Below are positions 8,839 through 34,309 of a DNA stretch of 62,340 nt, in pieces. Source of the stretch: a virus; IMG/VR virus record IMGVR_UViG_3300014166_000003, positions 1-62,340 of that record. The stretch is one strand, 5' to 3'. The position numbers and the translations under genes are program-made. Numbering within the stretch: position 1 is the first letter of the stretch; each line of letters opens with the position of its first letter. The notes under the pieces were generated by a model. The model did not search any database and had not been told where the DNA came from. It saw only the letters and a list, made by a program, of their open reading frames with translations.

Positions 8839-10026
8839 TTAGAACGCAGACGATGTGACAATGGTGCGCGTTGAACCAGTGTCACGAACATTGAGAGAGC
8901 ATGTACGTGCCGGACTCGTACCAGTACAGCTTACCCACCAATCACCATCGCGCAGTGATCCAGGTGTGCCCAACGATGACGTTATCTTGCTGGCTGTTGT
9001 GGTGTCACCGACGACAACACTGTCGACTGCGTCCAGGCCGATAAGGGGTACGTTCGCACTGTTGACGAAATTGCGAGCGTTCAAGAATGTTAGGTTGGGC
9101 AGGCGAATGATTCCTGCCGTGGCAGGCGTGCTGCCCAATTCAATCGTCGAGCCCGCATACAGTGTCCGAATACGTTTCGATCCACTGCCGATATCCTGAC
9201 TGTTATCGTTGACCGGCGCAAAAGTCGTGTGAAAGACAAGATTGCCTGTATTGTTGTAGATGTAGGCATTCGACCCATCGTGACCGAGCGCAGCGTACTT
9301 CGGGCCAGTCGTGCTACCGTACACACGAAACTCTTGTGCGTTCGTGCTGTTCTTCAACGCCAGAACATTGGAAGCGTCTCGAACTAGGATTGCGTCTGCG
9401 CCGAGCACCACGCTTGTTCCGAAATATCCAGATCGGACTTGCACCCCGCTGCGCCCAAGATCGTACACGTTGTCAGACGCAGGATACATGGCATAAGGAC
9501 CAATCGCTGAATTGCCGATGACCCATCGAGCCGCATTGTTTGTATCCAGATTCAACACACTGTCGTCCACAGTCCGCAGAATCAGTGCTCCGGTCTGTGA
9601 ATAGATACGTGAGTCTGAACCATCGTGCAACAGTTGCAAGTACTTCGGTCCAGTCGTGGTTCCATATACACGCAAGGTCTGAGCATTCGTGCTGTTCTTG
9701 AGTGCCAGCGTGTTCGCTGCACCATCACGAACCAGGACCGTGTCACCATTCCAAGTTAGTGATGCGGCTGAATCGAGCTGCAGGGCTGTGCCCGATATCG
9801 TCAATGGCACCACGGTTGTGCCGAAGCTGCCATCGGCCGACGTGTTCTTCTCAAGTGTGATGACACCACCATTAAGCTTCCATCGCCAGTAACCACCACC
9901 AGAGATCGATTGATCCGTTTCGCGAAACGTGGCAACGGGAGCCGTACCCTGGAATTGTCCAAAGGACATGGAAGGGGTAAGCAGAAGCGACAGAGCCAAT
10001 ACGAGAGACAGGAAAGATCGAATCAT
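8839..10026 (-). CDS. Tail fibre-like protein with Sec signal peptide
   Basis: 395 aa. Residues 1-24 form a convincing Sec signal (MIRSFLSLVLALSLLLT, cleavage near SFG-Q), unusual for a virion protein. The body is beta-rich and contains an internal duplication: VLVRDGAANTLALKNSTN, RVYGTTTGPKY and GSDSRIYSQTGALIL reappear as ILVRDASNVLALKNSTN, RVYGSTTGPKY and GSNAYIYNNTGNLVF, as in trimeric fibre shafts. The C-terminus may be a tip. The start overlaps the stop of the upstream gene by one base (TAATG). It is either a fibre or an exported protein. Confidence 0.6.
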   Translation of the reverse strand: MIRSFLSLVLALSLLLTPSMSFGQFQGTAPVATFRETDQSISGGGYWRWKLNGGVITLEKNTSADGSFGTTVVPLTISGTALQLDSAASLTWNGDTVLVRDGAANTLALKNSTNAQTLRVYGTTTGPKYLQLLHDGSDSRIYSQTGALILRTVDDSVLNLDTNNAARWVIGNSAIGPYAMYPASDNVYDLGRSGVQVRSGYFGTSVVLGADAILVRDASNVLALKNSTNAQEFRVYGSTTGPKYAALGHDGSNAYIYNNTGNLVFHTTFAPVNDNSQDIGSGSKRIRTLYAGSTIELGSTPATAGIIRLPNLTFLNARNFVNSANVPLIGLDAVDSVVVGDTTTASKITSSLGTPGSLRDGDWWVSCTGTSPARTCSLNVRDTGSTRTIVTSSAF

Positions 10027-10622
10027 TATGATGCCCTTCTGTAATATGCGATAAGGTCGTCACCACTCACGGGAGCGAAATCAAGTGTGAGATTCACACC
10101 TGCACGACTGAAGCCAGAACCTTCAAGTAGTGTGACAAAATGCCCGCTGCCAACAGCGCGATAAAACACGATGACGGAGTTCCCAAGCGGTGTTGAAGCA
10201 ATCGTGAATGCCGTATTCACACCGTTCTTTGTGCCAGCTACGCTTTCTTTCTCAACGTGGACACCGGTTGTATCGGCTGCAGGCGTCGCTATACCTGTGA
10301 TCAGAAGGTCCTGGATAGTCTGAGATGCGGGGCTTGCAGGTAGCGAGAAATTACCGAGCTGCTTGCTGACAGCGACTCCGTCGATAGTGACGTCAACTTG
10401 TGCCGTGTAATAACGCGTTGCGGGAATCGCATCGCTCGTACTTTCGAGAACAATGCTGAATGCACCGGTACTCGGACTGATCGTCGCGCTTTCGGCCTTT
10501 GGAATCGTGATATCACCATTCGAGTCAATGAACCAGTCATTGAGCGTGAAGCTGATCGTGCCGGACGTTGGAAACTCGTTCTGAGAATCTTCGATCACTC
10601 CGGTGATTGTGATTTGTGCCAT
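10026..10622 (-). CDS. Tail fibre or virion structural protein
   Basis: 198 aa, beta-rich. The N-terminal half (ITITGVIEDSQNEFPTSGTISFTLNDWF) resembles collar or carbohydrate-binding-like domains of phage tail proteins, and the C-terminal half (GVNTAFTIASTPLGNSVIVFYR and FAPVSGDDLIAYYRR) is a repeat-like beta sandwich of the kind found in fibres. Between tail tip and fibre genes, so a tail-associated role is likely. The precise family is not certain. Confidence 0.55.
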   Translation of the reverse strand: MAQITITGVIEDSQNEFPTSGTISFTLNDWFIDSNGDITIPKAESATISPSTGAFSIVLESTSDAIPATRYYTAQVDVTIDGVAVSKQLGNFSLPASPASQTIQDLLITGIATPAADTTGVHVEKESVAGTKNGVNTAFTIASTPLGNSVIVFYRAVGSGHFVTLLEGSGFSRAGVNLTLDFAPVSGDDLIAYYRRAS

Positions 10623-10625
10623 CCG

Positions 10626-10907
10626 TTACTGTCCCTGTCCTTTGCGTTCGAGCCGAGCGAGAATCTTTGCCTGCTCGACTTTTAGTCCTTCGATCTCACG
10701 TGTAAGCCGATCGAGCTTTTCTTCGCTGCGTTGCATCGATTCCATGAGCAGTCGACGGTCGGCCAAATACGGAGATTCGTTCTGGATCATGCTATGGACT
10801 TCCGTGCGCGATGGGAGCGAGTAGCCGAAAGAGATAACCGCTATCAGCGTCGTGAGCAGCACGCTGACAATGGCGGCAATGACAGGATTTGCAAAGCTTT
10901 TCGACAC
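10626..10907 (-). CDS. Membrane-anchored coiled-coil protein, spanin-like
   Basis: 93 aa from a GTG start with GGCAGGAG upstream. One N-terminal membrane span (ANPVIAAIVSVLLTTLIAVISFGY) is followed by a periplasmic-type charged coiled coil (LLMESMQRSEEKLDRLTREIEGLKVEQAKIL). That is the topology of inner-membrane spanins and some lysis accessory proteins, and the holin lies downstream in the same transcript. No partner lipoprotein gene is visible, so the spanin role is only a suggestion. Confidence 0.5.
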   Translation of the reverse strand: MSKSFANPVIAAIVSVLLTTLIAVISFGYSLPSRTEVHSMIQNESPYLADRRLLMESMQRSEEKLDRLTREIEGLKVEQAKILARLERKGQGQ

Positions 10908-22535: not shown

Positions 22536-23012
22536 TTATGCAGGCTGCAGGAAGTGTGTTGAAAGCGTGATCGTCATTCGAGCTTGTGTACCGACCTGAT
22601 CACCATATGCCCACTCGATACCGTTCACCGACTCGACAGAGAATCCATCGTTCGTACCGAATGCGTTGTAATAGGAATTGATCGCTGTGGTACTGAGCAA
22701 AGCCGTGAGCGTCTCTTCGATCAAGTCGACACCGACAAGCGGATCGGCCGATCGGATGAACATTGCCAGGGTAATGCGCAGTGGCGTGAACGATCGCTGC
22801 GAACCCATGAGCGATTCGATGATCAGATCGGTTGGATCGAATTCCAGATACGCGACCTTGTTGCCATTTTCCTGCACTTCCGGTGCGAGCAGTGCGTATT
22901 TGACGGACTCGAATTTCGAGCTGATCGCAGTCGCAAGAGTCGTGAGCACAGTACGCAATCGTGACGACGGTGGAGTCAGCGAGCTGATCGTAGGTTGGAT
23001 TAAACCGGCCAT
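22536..23012 (-). CDS. Tail terminator-like protein
   Basis: 158 aa. Helical N-terminus, then a beta-rich region (FTPLRITLAMFIRSADPL, QARMTITLSTHFLQPA) like the gpU-type terminators that cap the tail tube. The assignment relies on size, composition and gene order (connector, gp10-like, tail tube). The start overlaps the upstream stop by one base. Confidence 0.45.
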   Translation of the reverse strand: MAGLIQPTISSLTPPSSRLRTVLTTLATAISSKFESVKYALLAPEVQENGNKVAYLEFDPTDLIIESLMGSQRSFTPLRITLAMFIRSADPLVGVDLIEETLTALLSTTAINSYYNAFGTNDGFSVESVNGIEWAYGDQVGTQARMTITLSTHFLQPA

Positions 23013-23401
23013 TATTGGTTGTTGTGGATATCCCGCTTGATCGCTGTGGTCAGCAGATCGGTGTCTTCTTCATAGATGGTCTTATCGGATTGCGTAAGCA
23101 CAGCGAATCCTTTTTGCCCGACTTTTCTCAATCGCTTGGCGAGTGCCTCATATTTCCCGCTGAGCGCGGTACGATCCGCGTTCTCTTCACCAGCTCGTAC
23201 CTGGGTGAACTTCATGAAGCGGGCACTCAGCGACTCACAAATGAAGATCGCAGCACGGCGCACATCGATTTTCATGGTGATCGCAGCCGATATCTCTTCA
23301 TCATAGATCAGCTTGTTGTTTGTGTCCGTATCGCCAATGATGAAGCGGATCTTGTCTTTGTCAGTCGGAAGTGTGTTGTCGTACGACCACGTTTGTGCCA
23401 T
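23012..23401 (-). CDS. Head-tail connector (adaptor) protein
   Basis: 129 aa. LPTDKDKIRFIIGDTDTNNKLIYDEEISAAI followed by helices (AAIFICESLSARFMKFTQVRAG) is the usual start of gp6/gp15-type adaptor proteins, which form a ring between portal and tail. The late-gene box TGTCTAATTA lies 14 bases before the ATG. Convergent exported-protein genes and the PEP-CTERM gene separate it from the capsid genes. Confidence 0.65.
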   Translation of the reverse strand: MAQTWSYDNTLPTDKDKIRFIIGDTDTNNKLIYDEEISAAITMKIDVRRAAIFICESLSARFMKFTQVRAGEENADRTALSGKYEALAKRLRKVGQKGFAVLTQSDKTIYEEDTDLLTTAIKRDIHNNQ

Positions 23402-23437
23402 CGCTTAATTAGACAGAAATTGACGGTAAAAATTGGT

Positions 23438-23465
23438 TTGCGCGTGTTCATGCGTATGTTATAGA
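23438..23465 (+). promoter_or_regulatory. Possible promoter of the PEP-CTERM gene
   Basis: TTGCGC, 16 bases, TATAGA, then the ATG at 23474. The elements are weak matches to sigma70, and TTGACG at 23420 is an alternative -35. Some promoter is needed here because the gene faces away from the late transcript. Confidence 0.35.
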
Positions 23466-23473
23466 TTGCACTC

Positions 23474-24169
23474 ATGAAAACTCTCGTGATGTTGTTCATC
23501 ATCTTGTTAGGTTGCGTGCACGGCTACGGGACACCGACCGCTGTTGTCATTCATGTGCAGAACGGGATTCTCATTGGTGCGGACAGCGTGGATGTTGGTG
23601 GGACGTCTTATGACGTGCGTTTTGCTGCGCAAACATGCGTGGAGCTGTATGGCGGTTGCGAGCTGACTGAGAACCTGCCCTTCATACTCGAAGCGGATGC
23701 TCGTCTCGCATCACAGGCGCTATTGACTCAAGTGATCAATGGTCCGTTTGAGACCGCTCTATATCTGATCAAAGGATGCGAGACAGGACGCTTTAACGAA
23801 TCCTCATTCTGCGAGATCTATACACCGTTCGCACTCTTCACGTTTCGCAATTGGCGTGGAGAAGTTTATCCGGACAGCACGTATGTGCAGGTCGCCGACG
23901 CAAGTCTGTCGGCAGCTACATCCGCTCACTATGAAGTCGTGACCGTTGTGGATAGTCCGAACGATTTTCCGATGGGACCACCGAACACGAATGGTGTGAC
24001 CTGGGCGGCTTGGGTACGATCAGCACAGCAAGGTTCCCAAGATCCGTCAAGCCCACCACAGAATGCTATTACAGCTCCGGAACCATCGAACCTTGCTGTG
24101 CTGCTTATTGCTGCCGCAGGATTATTCTGCCACGCCTACCGTACCCAGCAGAGACAGGTTGGAAACTAG
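23474..24169 (+). CDS. PEP-CTERM sorted exported protein
   Basis: 231 aa. The N-terminus is a Sec signal (MKTLVMLFIILLGCVHGYG; LLGC could also be read as a lipobox). The C-terminus has the PEP-CTERM layout: APEPSNLAVLL, a hydrophobic span (AVLLIAAAGLFCHAY) and a basic end (RTQQRQ). Such tails are cut by exosortase after transfer to the cell envelope, typically in bacteria making exopolysaccharide. The body between has two possible disulfide pairs and no known domain. The gene stands alone on the plus strand inside the late module and overlaps the end of the next minus-strand gene by 65 bases. Confidence 0.7.
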   Translation: MKTLVMLFIILLGCVHGYGTPTAVVIHVQNGILIGADSVDVGGTSYDVRFAAQTCVELYGGCELTENLPFILEADARLASQALLTQVINGPFETALYLIKGCETGRFNESSFCEIYTPFALFTFRNWRGEVYPDSTYVQVADASLSAATSAHYEVVTVVDSPNDFPMGPPNTNGVTWAAWVRSAQQGSQDPSSPPQNAITAPEPSNLAVLLIAAAGLFCHAYRTQQRQVGN

Positions 24170-27107
24170 CAGCATTGCTCGTGATGCTGCTCGCTGTCAC
24201 AGTGACATTGCGACTCACGATTGATGCCGTTGCTCCGATCACGAATTGACCTGTGATCGTTGTGCTGTTTACAACGACCACATTCTGCACCGTGATGCCC
24301 GTACCGCTGATTGCAACCGAGCCCCCCGTTAAGTTCGTTCCCGTAATCGTGAACGCAATTGTTGACGTCTGGTAGCCGGATGATGGCGTGATACTCGTGA
24401 TCGTTGGATCGCTGGATACGTTGATCGTGAAATTCACTGTAGTGCTATCACCTTCGGCTGTCTCGACTCGCACCGTACGCACGCCTGTTGCAGCACCGGC
24501 TGATACCACAAGGTCTGCTGTGATCGTCGTGTCACTCACGACAACTAAGTTCGATACAGTGATGCCAGAACCGGACACAAGAATCGTCGGTGTGTCGAAC
24601 GTGAAGTTCGCACCTGACAGTGTCACGGACGTCGTGTGATTCTGCGTGCCCACGTTCGGCGTGATGCTCGTCAAGCTGGGAATAATCGGTGAGACAGACA
24701 TTGCCCCGATGTTTGGCAGCGTGCCAAAGAACACACGATTTCCGCTCGAATCTTTATACAGATAGACCGGATCACTCGGTAACCATGTGAGTGCTCGATC
24801 CAGGCCGATTTGATTTGTGCTGTAGTTGATCGTGGTGATCTGTGCGATGTTGGTCACATTGCCTACTGCAATCCAGTCAGCTTGTACTGGACTATCATCC
24901 GGTCCCCAACCCGCCTGGAAGAATGCAGCATCACCGACTGTCAATGTCGTACTCGATGCACCAGAACCGACCGTGTTGGTCAAATGTGAGCCGGTTGAAT
25001 TCGCAGGTGACGTATCCCGCAGATGAAAGTCTGTCGAGCTGACAAACTGCGGATCAGTGCACTGTCTGCCCTGCAGGGCATTGCCTACGAATGTCTCGGA
25101 TGTGAATGGTGTCGTCCAGGCTGCGCCGGTCAAACCAACGGTGCACGAGCTGCCTGGATTCACGCTCAAGAATCCCAAGTTGCTGCGGGCAACATTGTCG
25201 TCGTCCTGCAAGTGATCGATTCTGAATGTCGCAAGCGAATATCCGGAAGCCGACAAGTTTGTTTGCGTCGCAGAGCCGGTAGCCGTGCCCGATACTGAAG
25301 TGCCCGTAATCGCTCCGGAACCGTTGACTGTCGTCACCGTGATGATCAGATCATTATCGGGGCTTCTTCCACCAAGAGCACTGCCAAGAATCTTCCATTG
25401 ACCATTCGCAACATATCCAGAACCGGCCGTATGGATCGACACCATGTAGGTTCCTGCCGACTCCGTGACATCATATGTTCCGCTCGTACCATTCATCGCG
25501 ATTGATACAATCGTGTTTGCTGTACAGCTCAGACCATCCGCACGTCGAGTTATGCCCGTTACAGCACCACCCGATGTCGTGAGATCGAATTTGATGCTGC
25601 CACTACGGCAAGGTGCACCGCTAGCCGATACGTTATTAGTGTTCGCGTAGCCAGCACCACCCGCTGTGAGTGTTCCGTCAAGCAGTCTGCCTGTACCGAA
25701 CGAATACAGCTTGAGTGCAAATGTGTTCGTTACTGCGTCATAGTGCAAATTGTTGATGTAGGATGCATGCTGAATTGCGTCCAATACGGAAGCTGATTGT
25801 GCATTCTCGACACCACAGATATAGAAGTCCGCGTCGCTATTGCCAGCATTGATGCGCAGCCGATCATTTGCATTATAGCCAGAACCCTGATCATGCAATG
25901 TGACCACGGTGACCGCGCCACTGGCAACAATATCGACAGTCACACCCGAACCACTGCCGGTAAGATTTGTCGTCGTCACGGGAGTAGAAGACGTGGTGTA
26001 TAACGTGCCTGCAGTGCGTGGCGCAGATTGTGTGATCGCAGTGCTGCAACCTGACGTACTACCGACCGAAGATGCTGCACCTGTAGCAACAAATGCCGAC
26101 GAGATAGCCGTGTTGTTATAGACCTTTGTATATACTCCGGACTCGCCGCTGGACGTGCAACAGTTTTGAACCCAAAACCCTTCACCACCCTGCACGATAT
26201 TGTAGCGACCGATCATGTAATTGACACCGCCGCATGATGCCGTCGCATTGGATAGGATGAAGTGCTGTTGAGCCATGCCAACAGTCTCTTTCCTGGTATT
26301 CCCTTCGATCAGAATGTAGCTCGATCCAGGGGTAATCGATGACTGGCAGTCGATCTGTGCACCGTCAATGTGATTATTCGGCGAATCATAGTTAGGGGAA
26401 TCGTGGAAGTAGTTGTTGCGCCATACGGTATAACTGCCCTTGAAATTCGTATAGTCGCCGACTCCGGACACATCGTTGTTCTGAATCAAGCTGTGGTCGC
26501 ACCACAACTGAAAGCCGCTCTTGCGTCCACCACTGCCATTTACCCAAGGGGAACCAGCATTCAGAATCGTGTTGCCGTCAAAAATGCTATCGCTGCACGT
26601 GGCCGTAGTGAAGCGGATGGCTGCATTCGCTGACAAGAAATCGTGAATGAGATTGCCTTCAACACGAATATGATTCGTACCGCTACCGGCTGATAAGATC
26701 CGATCTGCTGCTGTGTCCGTGAAACCAGAGCCAGTGATCTCGAACCATTTGATTCGGATGTGGTGTCGACCGGTAACAATGAAGTTGCGCACCTTGGCAT
26801 TCGTTCCACCGTTGACCGGAGCAGCAGCACCCTGGTATGTAATGTATCCAAGAACCGCGTCGCCATCCACTGCGGGTGTGAAGCTGGAACCGAAGGTTGA
26901 TCCAACAGCCATGATAACGGTGTCACCCGCCGCAACAGCCGGTGAGCCTGTACCGTTGGCTCGACTGAGATTCTGCCAAGGATGGGTTGCGTCACCGTTG
27001 TTGGCGTCGAGCCCTGTGTTGCTATCGACGTAGTATGTCGTCGCCCCGAAGGTCAACGAGGACATTCCGAGCAGGATGAAGAGGCAAAGAAAGAGTTTCT
27101 TAAACAT
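24105..27107 (-). CDS. Exported right-handed beta-helix protein with IPT/TIG domains
   Basis: 1000 aa. Sec signal MFKKLFLCLFILLGMSS with likely cleavage TFG-A. Residues from about 23 show the opening of pectate-lyase-like beta-helices (TTYYVDSNTGLDANNGDATHPWQNL), then rungs such as HIRIKWFEITG, HIRVEGNLIHDF and YILIEGNTR. Two immunoglobulin-like IPT/TIG repeats close the protein (SITPNVGTQNHTTSVTLSG and SITPSSGYQTSTIAFTITG). Beta-helices of this kind in phages are tailspikes or depolymerases; a Sec signal would instead send it out of the cell during infection. Confidence 0.65.
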   Translation of the reverse strand: MFKKLFLCLFILLGMSSLTFGATTYYVDSNTGLDANNGDATHPWQNLSRANGTGSPAVAAGDTVIMAVGSTFGSSFTPAVDGDAVLGYITYQGAAAPVNGGTNAKVRNFIVTGRHHIRIKWFEITGSGFTDTAADRILSAGSGTNHIRVEGNLIHDFLSANAAIRFTTATCSDSIFDGNTILNAGSPWVNGSGGRKSGFQLWCDHSLIQNNDVSGVGDYTNFKGSYTVWRNNYFHDSPNYDSPNNHIDGAQIDCQSSITPGSSYILIEGNTRKETVGMAQQHFILSNATASCGGVNYMIGRYNIVQGGEGFWVQNCCTSSGESGVYTKVYNNTAISSAFVATGAASSVGSTSGCSTAITQSAPRTAGTLYTTSSTPVTTTNLTGSGSGVTVDIVASGAVTVVTLHDQGSGYNANDRLRINAGNSDADFYICGVENAQSASVLDAIQHASYINNLHYDAVTNTFALKLYSFGTGRLLDGTLTAGGAGYANTNNVSASGAPCRSGSIKFDLTTSGGAVTGITRRADGLSCTANTIVSIAMNGTSGTYDVTESAGTYMVSIHTAGSGYVANGQWKILGSALGGRSPDNDLIITVTTVNGSGAITGTSVSGTATGSATQTNLSASGYSLATFRIDHLQDDDNVARSNLGFLSVNPGSSCTVGLTGAAWTTPFTSETFVGNALQGRQCTDPQFVSSTDFHLRDTSPANSTGSHLTNTVGSGASSTTLTVGDAAFFQAGWGPDDSPVQADWIAVGNVTNIAQITTINYSTNQIGLDRALTWLPSDPVYLYKDSSGNRVFFGTLPNIGAMSVSPIIPSLTSITPNVGTQNHTTSVTLSGANFTFDTPTILVSGSGITVSNLVVVSDTTITADLVVSAGAATGVRTVRVETAEGDSTTVNFTINVSSDPTITSITPSSGYQTSTIAFTITGTNLTGGSVAISGTGITVQNVVVVNSTTITGQFVIGATASIVSRNVTVTASSITSNAASFQPVSAGYGRRGRIILRQQ

Positions 27108-27109
27108 TG

Positions 27110-28648
27110 TTAGTGCCCACCTAAGATGCCGCGAGCACCGACCGAGACATTCGGCTGTGCGAATGCACCAAGTTCATCCCACGAGATCACTATTCCAGAA
27201 CCAGTGCTGTCGCGGAATAGCGGATCGACATAAAGCGTCGTGCTCGCTACACCGACAAGCAATCTGCCACGCAGCACAGACTTAAATGCGGGTGTGATGG
27301 ATGCTTCGAGTTTCTGCTTGTTTGCATTCGTGAATCCGCCAGTGCCAGTCCAGCTATCCGTGTCCGCTGTCCAGGCAACACCCGTACCGTCAAATGGTGC
27401 AGCATTACGACCACTTGCAAGCGTGCCCTGTGGGAAGCTTGCATTTGATCCGTATTCGATCTCGTACCAGACATCACGATTCGTCAACGCTGTGGCATTG
27501 TCGCGAATGATACGCAGGCCAGCAGTCAGTGCCGACGTTGTCGCGCTCCACCGCATTTGCCACGGCAGAGTAAAGGGCTCGCTCTCATTGGCGGCTGCGG
27601 TCGTAGTAACACTCCAAGACAGGTGCGTTCCATCGATCGCCGCACCAAGATCGGAATAGATCGATGTGTTCGTGGTCAGAGAACCGAGTCGGTTGTAGTA
27701 TTCGAATGCCTTGAAGTTGTTCGTCGTTGAAACATTCACCAGAGTCAAGTCACCGGCATTACCGGGCCATGTGCCAGTCTTAAGCCCCGGTGTAGAGCTG
27801 AGTTTCACATTGCGCAGGATGACGTGCCCATTGAGATTGGCAACGTTGAAATAGTTTCCACCACTCGTATTGAAAGTGCTCAAGTCCGCGTCGATAACAG
27901 TCAGGCGGCTGGACAGCGGGTTACCGGCCGATGAAGTCAAGAACAGCGTGGCTGGCTTGCTCGCACCGGCATAGGCGATTGTCGGATTCGAAATCACGAC
28001 TTCTGCACCACGAACCTGAATCGCGAATGCTGCTGTATTATTGGCGATGTTGAAGGTGCAATCTTTCAGGCGGATATAAGGAAACGGATTGCTCGTGCTG
28101 GCACCGGAACCAAGATTAATGCTTACAGAGCCCGTGCCCGGTGTGTCGAATGTGCAGTGATCGCATTCAATACCGACACGAGACTGGCTCGCCACGAGGT
28201 TGGTTGCAATGTTGACCGTGTTTGAAGTGCTTGAACCGGAGTTCGCCCCGATGGTCATGCCGTATAGATAAAGCTTCTGTGCTCCCGTTCCGGCAACGGT
28301 CATTGTGAAAGTGTTCCCCGGATGAATCTGCGCACCGGCTGCACGAGCACTGCCCGCACACGCGCCCACACCGCTTTTCGTCACCGACAAGATCGTCAGA
28401 TCGATGTTCGATGGCGCATCCCATGACGTATTCGCGGCAGGTGTCTCAGCGTAGGCACTGTCGACATATAGAATGTCGTTCGCACCTGCGATAGCCATCG
28501 CAGCGACAACCGTCGTCTTTGCTTTCGCCCATGTTGAGCCATCGCTGTTGTCTCCGGTCGTTGCGACACAGATAGCTGCAGCATTCGCATGGGCGATGCT
28601 GCAGAACAGAACAAGGCTAGCCAGTAGCAATCGTGTAAAAAATCTCAT
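27110..28648 (-). CDS. Exported beta-helix-like protein
   Basis: 512 aa. Sec signal MRFFTRLLLASLVLFCSIA with cleavage near ANA-A. The following GDNSDGSTWAKAKTTVVAAMA is a typical start of parallel beta-helix proteins, and rungs like HVILRNVKLSS and YIRLKDCTFNI follow. The C-terminal 150 residues look like a separate beta domain. It is adjacent to the 1000-aa beta-helix gene with only two bases between stop and start. The late-gene box CGGTCCAACTA is 14 bases before the ATG. Confidence 0.6.
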   Translation of the reverse strand: MRFFTRLLLASLVLFCSIAHANAAAICVATTGDNSDGSTWAKAKTTVVAAMAIAGANDILYVDSAYAETPAANTSWDAPSNIDLTILSVTKSGVGACAGSARAAGAQIHPGNTFTMTVAGTGAQKLYLYGMTIGANSGSSTSNTVNIATNLVASQSRVGIECDHCTFDTPGTGSVSINLGSGASTSNPFPYIRLKDCTFNIANNTAAFAIQVRGAEVVISNPTIAYAGASKPATLFLTSSAGNPLSSRLTVIDADLSTFNTSGGNYFNVANLNGHVILRNVKLSSTPGLKTGTWPGNAGDLTLVNVSTTNNFKAFEYYNRLGSLTTNTSIYSDLGAAIDGTHLSWSVTTTAAANESEPFTLPWQMRWSATTSALTAGLRIIRDNATALTNRDVWYEIEYGSNASFPQGTLASGRNAAPFDGTGVAWTADTDSWTGTGGFTNANKQKLEASITPAFKSVLRGRLLVGVASTTLYVDPLFRDSTGSGIVISWDELGAFAQPNVSVGARGILGGH

Positions 28649-28674
28649 ATTTAGTTGGACCGTTGAGGCAGAAA

Positions 28675-29364
28675 CTATTTAATTTGCAGGTCGACGAAGA
28701 TGCCCGCAGGCGCATTCGAATTGTCCGTAGGAGTGCAGACGATCGGCGATGTACCGCCCCCGCCCGTGACGGCAAAACCCATGCCCGTGGGATAATCGCC
28801 AGTAATCGGAATGGTTAGCGTGCGGATAAAGCCGCCGTCAGCAGTTGACGCTGAGCTGGACGCGGGAATCGTATAGCTTGTGATATAGCCAGTCGCACTT
28901 GTCGGATCAGGCGTCGTGCCCAAGTTGTACATGCGCAAACAGGCAGGCGTCGTAGTCGGATTGCGAACATCGAAACTATAGACGGCCGTCGCTCCGTTCT
29001 TGCAGAGCGTGGCATTCGTGCTCGCTGTCGTCGGTGCTTTATAGCAGCCGGTCGTACCACCGGTAACCGTTGCTTCCGGCAGAACAGGAATAGGCGTCGT
29101 GTCCTGCGCTGCGTCACGAATCGCCGTCAAGATATCTGTTAGTGCCTGGGTTAAGTCAGCCGGTACGGGCACACCGTTGGTAACACCCTGAATAGCAGGT
29201 GCATTCGTTCCGCTGACACCGGCTGCTGTAACTGATCCAGACTTGCCGGTCGTCGGATCATAGGTAATGGAACGCGTCTGCCCGAATGCGACATTGTCGA
29301 CCGCGCCCGCCATGAGTATGACGAGCGCGATTAGAGCAAGACGAATCTTGTTTGAAATCTGCAT
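28675..29364 (-). CDS. Exported hypothetical protein
   Basis: 229 aa. N-terminal Sec signal (KIRLALIALVILMAGAVDNV, cleavage AFG-Q). The mature part is Thr/Ala/Gly-rich and contains TTGCYKAPTTASTNATLCKNG and a beta domain ending DLQIK. No family was recognised. It is the third signal-peptide gene in a row on the late strand, with a GGAG ribosome site. Confidence 0.55.
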   Translation of the reverse strand: MQISNKIRLALIALVILMAGAVDNVAFGQTRSITYDPTTGKSGSVTAAGVSGTNAPAIQGVTNGVPVPADLTQALTDILTAIRDAAQDTTPIPVLPEATVTGGTTGCYKAPTTASTNATLCKNGATAVYSFDVRNPTTTPACLRMYNLGTTPDPTSATGYITSYTIPASSSASTADGGFIRTLTIPITGDYPTGMGFAVTGGGGTSPIVCTPTDNSNAPAGIFVDLQIK

Positions 29365-34268: not shown

Positions 34269-34309
34269 CAGGTACTTAGACCACGGGCTGTGATAGGAAT
34301 ATGACGAGG

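Follow-up and report, generated by a model that had tools for sequence, protein, structure and literature searches.

A phage accessory gene from a bacterial PEP-CTERM-type family suggests viral use of host exosortase to reshape the surface of the infected cell

Introduction

PEP-CTERM proteins occur widely, yet for most of them no explanation is at hand. To our knowledge, they have been described only from bacteria that have an outer membrane and exopolysaccharide genes. In the PEP-CTERM/exosortase (EpsH) system, a protein carries an N-terminal signal and, at its C terminus, a Pro-Glu-Pro (PEP) followed by a hydrophobic helix; it enters by Sec and is anchored by the tail helix, and the PEP is the presumed site of exosortase action (Haft et al. 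2006, PMC1569441). Retention of exopolysaccharide on the cell depends in part on PEP-CTERM proteins, or on the exosortase that serves them, in flocculating bacteria and in Nostoc (PMC9850573, PMC12188702). The phage gene described here encodes a protein with the same signal, PEP and helix; as in the known system, it has little homology to named families, and its homologues are found mostly in exosortase-bearing Gram-negative bacteria. Unlike known members, it is phage-encoded, its basic cluster is reduced to two arginines, and it scores below the cut-off of the TIGR02595 model. With the flocculation PEP-CTERM protein PepA of Zoogloea and Aquincola (PMC9850573), it has in common the type of export and sorting signal, but this likeness is one of tails only, seen in related members, and does not appear to extend to homology of the ectodomain.

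In a literature search we met no account of a PEP-CTERM protein encoded by a phage, although such accounts may exist; the first-pass annotation of this locus had likewise known of no well-described role for exosortase substrates in phages. The superinfection-exclusion proteins Llp and Cor are among the phage morons that alter the envelope, and the envelope morons we know of take inner membrane or lipoprotein routes, none of them the exosortase route. The superinfection-exclusion protein SieA of P22 (PMC10883804) belongs to the same kind. Like such morons, the gene reported here is an accessory gene that stands apart from the structural genes and has a predicted envelope product.

Results and Discussion

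The window, by which we mean the whole stretch of 62,340 bases that was analysed, is a viral contig with genes for terminase, portal, major capsid, tail tube and central fibre, together with DNA polymerase, primase and ribonucleotide reductase. Its major capsid protein is of a type seen in Roseobacter RDJL, Vibrio, Pseudomonas and Arthrobacter phages, and the source is a tailed phage of roughly 62 kb with a YuA/RDJL-type major capsid protein. At 23474-24169 on the + strand lies an open reading frame (ORF) of 231 amino acids with an ATG start and a TAG stop, as the first-pass annotation had described. The codon statistics of this frame are phage-like, at +0.153 bits per codon, while the other five frames score between -0.21 and -0.49, and none of the + strand windows sampled across the late region equals it. 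Together with phmmer and profile homology, these data identify a coding sequence whose product is a diverged relative of secreted bacterial proteins of the PEP-CTERM type, which form one family. The late genes at both sides are on the - strand, which bears out the earlier statement that the gene runs opposite to the late module.

Upstream, the divergent neighbour is a late gene (phrog_1732, 23012-23401, - strand) that is 69-70% identical to its counterpart in a related phage. Downstream, the convergent neighbour (24105-27107, - strand) is called from its ORF, domain and signal as a 1000-aa protein with a signal sequence and a TIG domain, and at its 3' end it shares 65 bp (24105-24169) with the codons of the PEP-CTERM tail. 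The divergent intergenic region of 72 bp (23402-23473) contains no Shine-Dalgarno sequence. Just upstream of the gene, TGTTATAGA is a candidate extended -10 element, still unproven, and promoter and terminator scans at the gene gave nothing above chance. In contrast to many PEP-CTERM genes, for which a sigma-54 site has been reported, no such site was found upstream.

The only relative of this phage that we found is one IMG/VR contig (L002/L113/L114), with 66-70% identity in the tail tube and the neighbour gene; scans with the capsid and tail-tube proteins returned the same single relative. There, the spot of the PEP-CTERM gene is occupied by two unrelated late-strand ORFs, and no PEP-CTERM gene is present at it. 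Membership in a bacterial family, a place on the opposite strand among phage late genes and absence from the nearest relative, the one relative compared, make the gene moron-like, as had been proposed from the first look at the sequence. The same absence, along with the metagenomic type of the contig, would also be expected of an assembly chimera or host contamination, in which a bacterial fragment was joined to phage DNA. We consider this extremely unlikely given that phage late genes lie at both sides, one of them overlapping the gene by 65 bp, and that the codon statistics of the gene are near those of the phage.

We then considered the protein itself. By a hydropathy heuristic only, its N terminus, MKTLVMLFIILLGCVHG, counts as a signal sequence, in line with the Sec signal noted before. 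The Sec-type signal sequence MKTLVMLFIILLGCVHGYG (23474-23530, cleavage site approximate) also forms an N-terminal helix in the AlphaFold model, and an LLGC within this region looks like a poor lipobox as well. The family core motif, GILIGADSVDVGGTSYDVRF, is encoded at 23564-23623, and its pattern is found once in the window. In an alignment of 25 sequences, core residues L33, A36, V41, G43, T44, Y46, V48 and F50 are invariant. The family alignment also marks four cysteines, C55, C62, C102 and C113 (23636-23812), of which C55 and C62 are nearly invariant; in an exported domain these cysteines could possibly form disulfides. In the AlphaFold model (pLDDT 77.6, pTM 0.67), a beta-rich domain is followed by a C-terminal helix that is predicted with confidence. 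Neither sequence and fold searches of the PDB nor a search of a viral fold library matched the protein to anything meaningful, and the fold of the ectodomain therefore yields no hint of function.

The protein ends in ...APEPSNLAVLLIAAAGLFCHAYRTQQRQVGN. Within this tail, Pro-Glu-Pro occupies residues 202-204 of 231 (24077-24085), with both prolines invariant in 25 homologues. Directly after it comes a hydrophobic helix of about 14 residues, NLAVLLIAAAGLFCHAY, annotated at residues 206-222 (24089-24139); AlphaFold draws the helix over residues 206-230, with pLDDT of about 90 for the block 211-230. The end, RTQQRQVGN (24140-24166), is weakly basic, having two arginines and no acidic residue, and is weaker than the ends of the relatives; the residue before PEP is alanine instead of valine. 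When the tail was described as PEP, 14 hydrophobic residues and at least two Lys/Arg without acids, the real tail fitted and none of 200,000 shuffles of it did. Among the ORFs of at least 60 aa in the window, a tail of this architecture occurs only in 23474-24169.

Formal models were less generous. TIGR02595 is placed correctly, on residues 201-217, but with 10.8 bits it stays under its cut-off of 16, and a Pfam search of the protein, PF07589 included, gave no match; the profile check proposed in the first-pass annotation thus returned nothing above cut-off. With a tail-only profile, built from tails in mixed register, the phage tail ranks 247th among itself and 20,000 shuffles, which is weak evidence either way. 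Of the PEPS-hydrophobic-basic tail claimed earlier, then, the PEP and the helix stand, while the basic part comes down to two arginines and the tail-only rank is poor. These models are weak; what is decisive is full-length homology to a bacterial family with tails of the PEP or VPLPA type.

Direct searches with the phage protein did not reach this family: viral contigs, GTDB genomes, INPHARED phages and plasmids all gave no match. A segment of the protein, VDVGGTSYDVRF, resembles what we take to be a known type of bacterial PEP-CTERM protein. Homologues were recovered only by a degenerate motif scan of GTDB contigs, with a motif taken from this family pattern and then tested. The scan led to more than 40 bacterial homologues in all, from Pseudomonadota, Myxococcota and Nitrospirota. 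About 36 of the motif-scan proteins are clear homologues of the phage protein by phmmer (E 1e-19 to 1e-7), and sampled genomes added others, with the reference genome counted in each case: 3 of 369 genomes in the class of the host of L033 and 4 of 385 Alphaproteobacteria. A family profile of 28 full-length homologues, with the phage protein left out, matches the phage protein over residues 2-225 at 111 bits (6.6e-33), whereas 2,000 shuffled versions reached 10.7 at most. Of the full-length relatives, nearly all have a tail in which PEP, VPLPA or VPAP precedes a hydrophobic helix and a basic end; L054 is a degraded exception.

No Pfam, PHROG or dedicated NCBIfam model matches this family, whose core reads GA-x-x-VDVxGTLYDVxF (also written GADxVDVxGTLYDVxF). 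The phage protein has both the core motif and the cysteine pair, and shares with the family its full-length homology, its four-cysteine pattern and the position of its tail. It differs from the bacterial members in its 22-33% identity to them, in having the longest branch in the tree, and in its mobile phage location. Since that branch is very long, the function of the phage protein may have drifted. Long branch and low support leave the phage copy unplaced in the family tree, and the number of acquisitions is not decided by it. Around the chromosomal copies most genes do not resemble those of phages, and few phage families occur in the flanks, which fits host-to-phage transfer. Very probably, then, the phage took this family member from a host and carries its gene as an accessory.

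Motif matches in Treponema were rejected as relatives because of their biotin-carboxyl-carrier-like ends, and the match in L003 was rejected as a viral structural-type protein. In some Alphaproteobacteria, the family occurs in tandem gene pairs (L065 1009-2384; L080 3637-5080).

A captured host gene need not be useful. It may be a passenger that no longer serves the phage, with an eroding tail, and that persists by chance; a tail below the TIGR02595 cut-off and poor in the tail-only profile, a branch longer than any other in the tree, the lack of an evident promoter or ribosome-binding site, and absence from the relative would all agree with this. However, the 231-codon frame is intact with phage-like codon statistics, and the core motif, the near-invariant cysteines and both tail prolines are kept at about 30% identity. 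A passive gene that had diverged this far should have lost these features, and we consider a passenger unlikely.

The phage record, when searched, was found to encode no exosortase, in which it departs from the bacterial system. Exosortase (TIGR02602) is matched in 25 of the 32 homologue-bearing genomes versus 44 of 143 sampled Gammaproteobacteria (Fisher p 1.4e-6). In this comparison many genomes are drafts or metagenome-assembled, a single class serves as the baseline, and the genomes with a homologue come from several phyla. One genome, G504, has three family members (L104, L107, L109) and no TIGR02602 match; perhaps its exosortase is a different one or the genome is incomplete.

The family alignment was also used to search for other mobile-element copies, and homologues were found on two IMG/VR contigs. 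The first, L096, comes from a predicted provirus whose opposite end carries an integrase. Its homologue, which is above the cut-off of the VPLPA-CTERM model, lies on the opposite strand after the last of the tail-side genes and has a hicAB toxin-antitoxin pair next to it (L096 1-2484). No exact terminal repeat of at least 13 bp was found in this provirus; its right boundary is thus uncertain, and the homologue could be host flank. In the second, L097, genes for capsid, portal and terminase are clustered with those for DUF6127 and DUF2460 proteins, and we take the cluster to be gene-transfer-agent-like. Here the homologue (9836-10669) is antisense between portal and DUF6127 and is above the TIGR02595 cut-off. 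In all three elements, the family gene runs against the adjacent structural genes. Homologues in the same place in other phages, the further check suggested at the outset, were not found; the L096 and L097 copies sit elsewhere. A tree with the three copies does not group them and is too weak to count acquisitions. We tentatively entertain several separate uptakes of exosortase-substrate family genes by phages and phage-like elements, with host exosortase as the delivery route to surface or matrix, though we would not yet call this probable.

The neighbours of the phage gene offer another explanation. Four consecutive genes in 23474-29364 start with Sec-like signals, namely the PEP-CTERM gene and those at 24105-27107, 27110-28648 and 28675-29364, and they might form one exported or virion-associated set, for example of surface adhesins or matrix-binding proteins, rather than the PEP-CTERM protein being independent exosortase cargo. 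The overlap of the PEP and TIG genes at their 3' ends, and the signal-sequence beta-helix and spike-like genes of the relative phage, would suit such a set. The PEP gene, however, is on the opposite strand and comes from a different, bacterial family, and its homologues in L096 and L097 do without such neighbours. We regard a common set as rather unlikely.

We instead favor, at about an even chance for the reading as a whole, a host-derived moron whose product is exported, sorted by exosortase and alters the infected cell's surface or matrix. A host-derived accessory gene would have been inserted on the opposite strand among phage late genes. Its protein would be exported by Sec and held in the inner membrane by the C-terminal helix. 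Host exosortase would recognise it at the PEP, if the atypical tail is still recognised, and release it to the outer envelope or the exopolysaccharide matrix. Given the tail score below the TIGR02595 cut-off, the two arginines and the poor tail-only rank, sorting by host exosortase is a step that we infer; we think it somewhat better than even that exosortase handles the protein. The altered surface or matrix would most plausibly block adsorption, either of competing phages or of released progeny to debris. This use is proposed because it is most in line with known morons, and a role in limiting adsorption is offered tentatively, as neither sequence nor fold would seem to bear on that step.

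A different use of the same pathway would be that of a decoy: the phage protein occupies host exosortase, host PEP-CTERM proteins are kept off the surface, and the matrix is loosened or opened for the phage. A kept PEP in an otherwise atypical tail could suit a slowly processed substrate. A decoy has no need of an ectodomain, which is kept in full, and we hold this to be highly unlikely.

Phage use of the exosortase route, if true, would be a class of moron not described before, and a phage PEP-CTERM copy would link sorting by exosortase with the conflict between phage and host. It would also give a small genetic handle on the role of one PEP-CTERM family. For uncultured phages, such genes would be a help in finding the host, because PEP-CTERM proteins are described only from outer-membrane bacteria with exopolysaccharide genes.

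Structural-type phage proteins seldom bear signal sequences. The run of four signal-sequence genes, three of them late-strand, sits between head genes and connector genes, and a spike-like gene at 8839-10026 also begins with a Sec-like signal. In the relative phage, the signal-sequence beta-helix and spike genes are at L113 4884-9287 and 9287-11287.

Finally, the motif CTAA[AGT]TA, often GTCTAAGTA, has six copies in the 62 kb, all on the late strand just before late-gene start codons (- strand, positions 34279, 29745, 28654, 23412, 16487 and 11397). Some copies lie within short palindromes with differing stems. The relative has GTCTAAATAAACGATG at position 1154 of L002, before the same gene as one of these copies, and the motif is possibly a late-gene start or control element.
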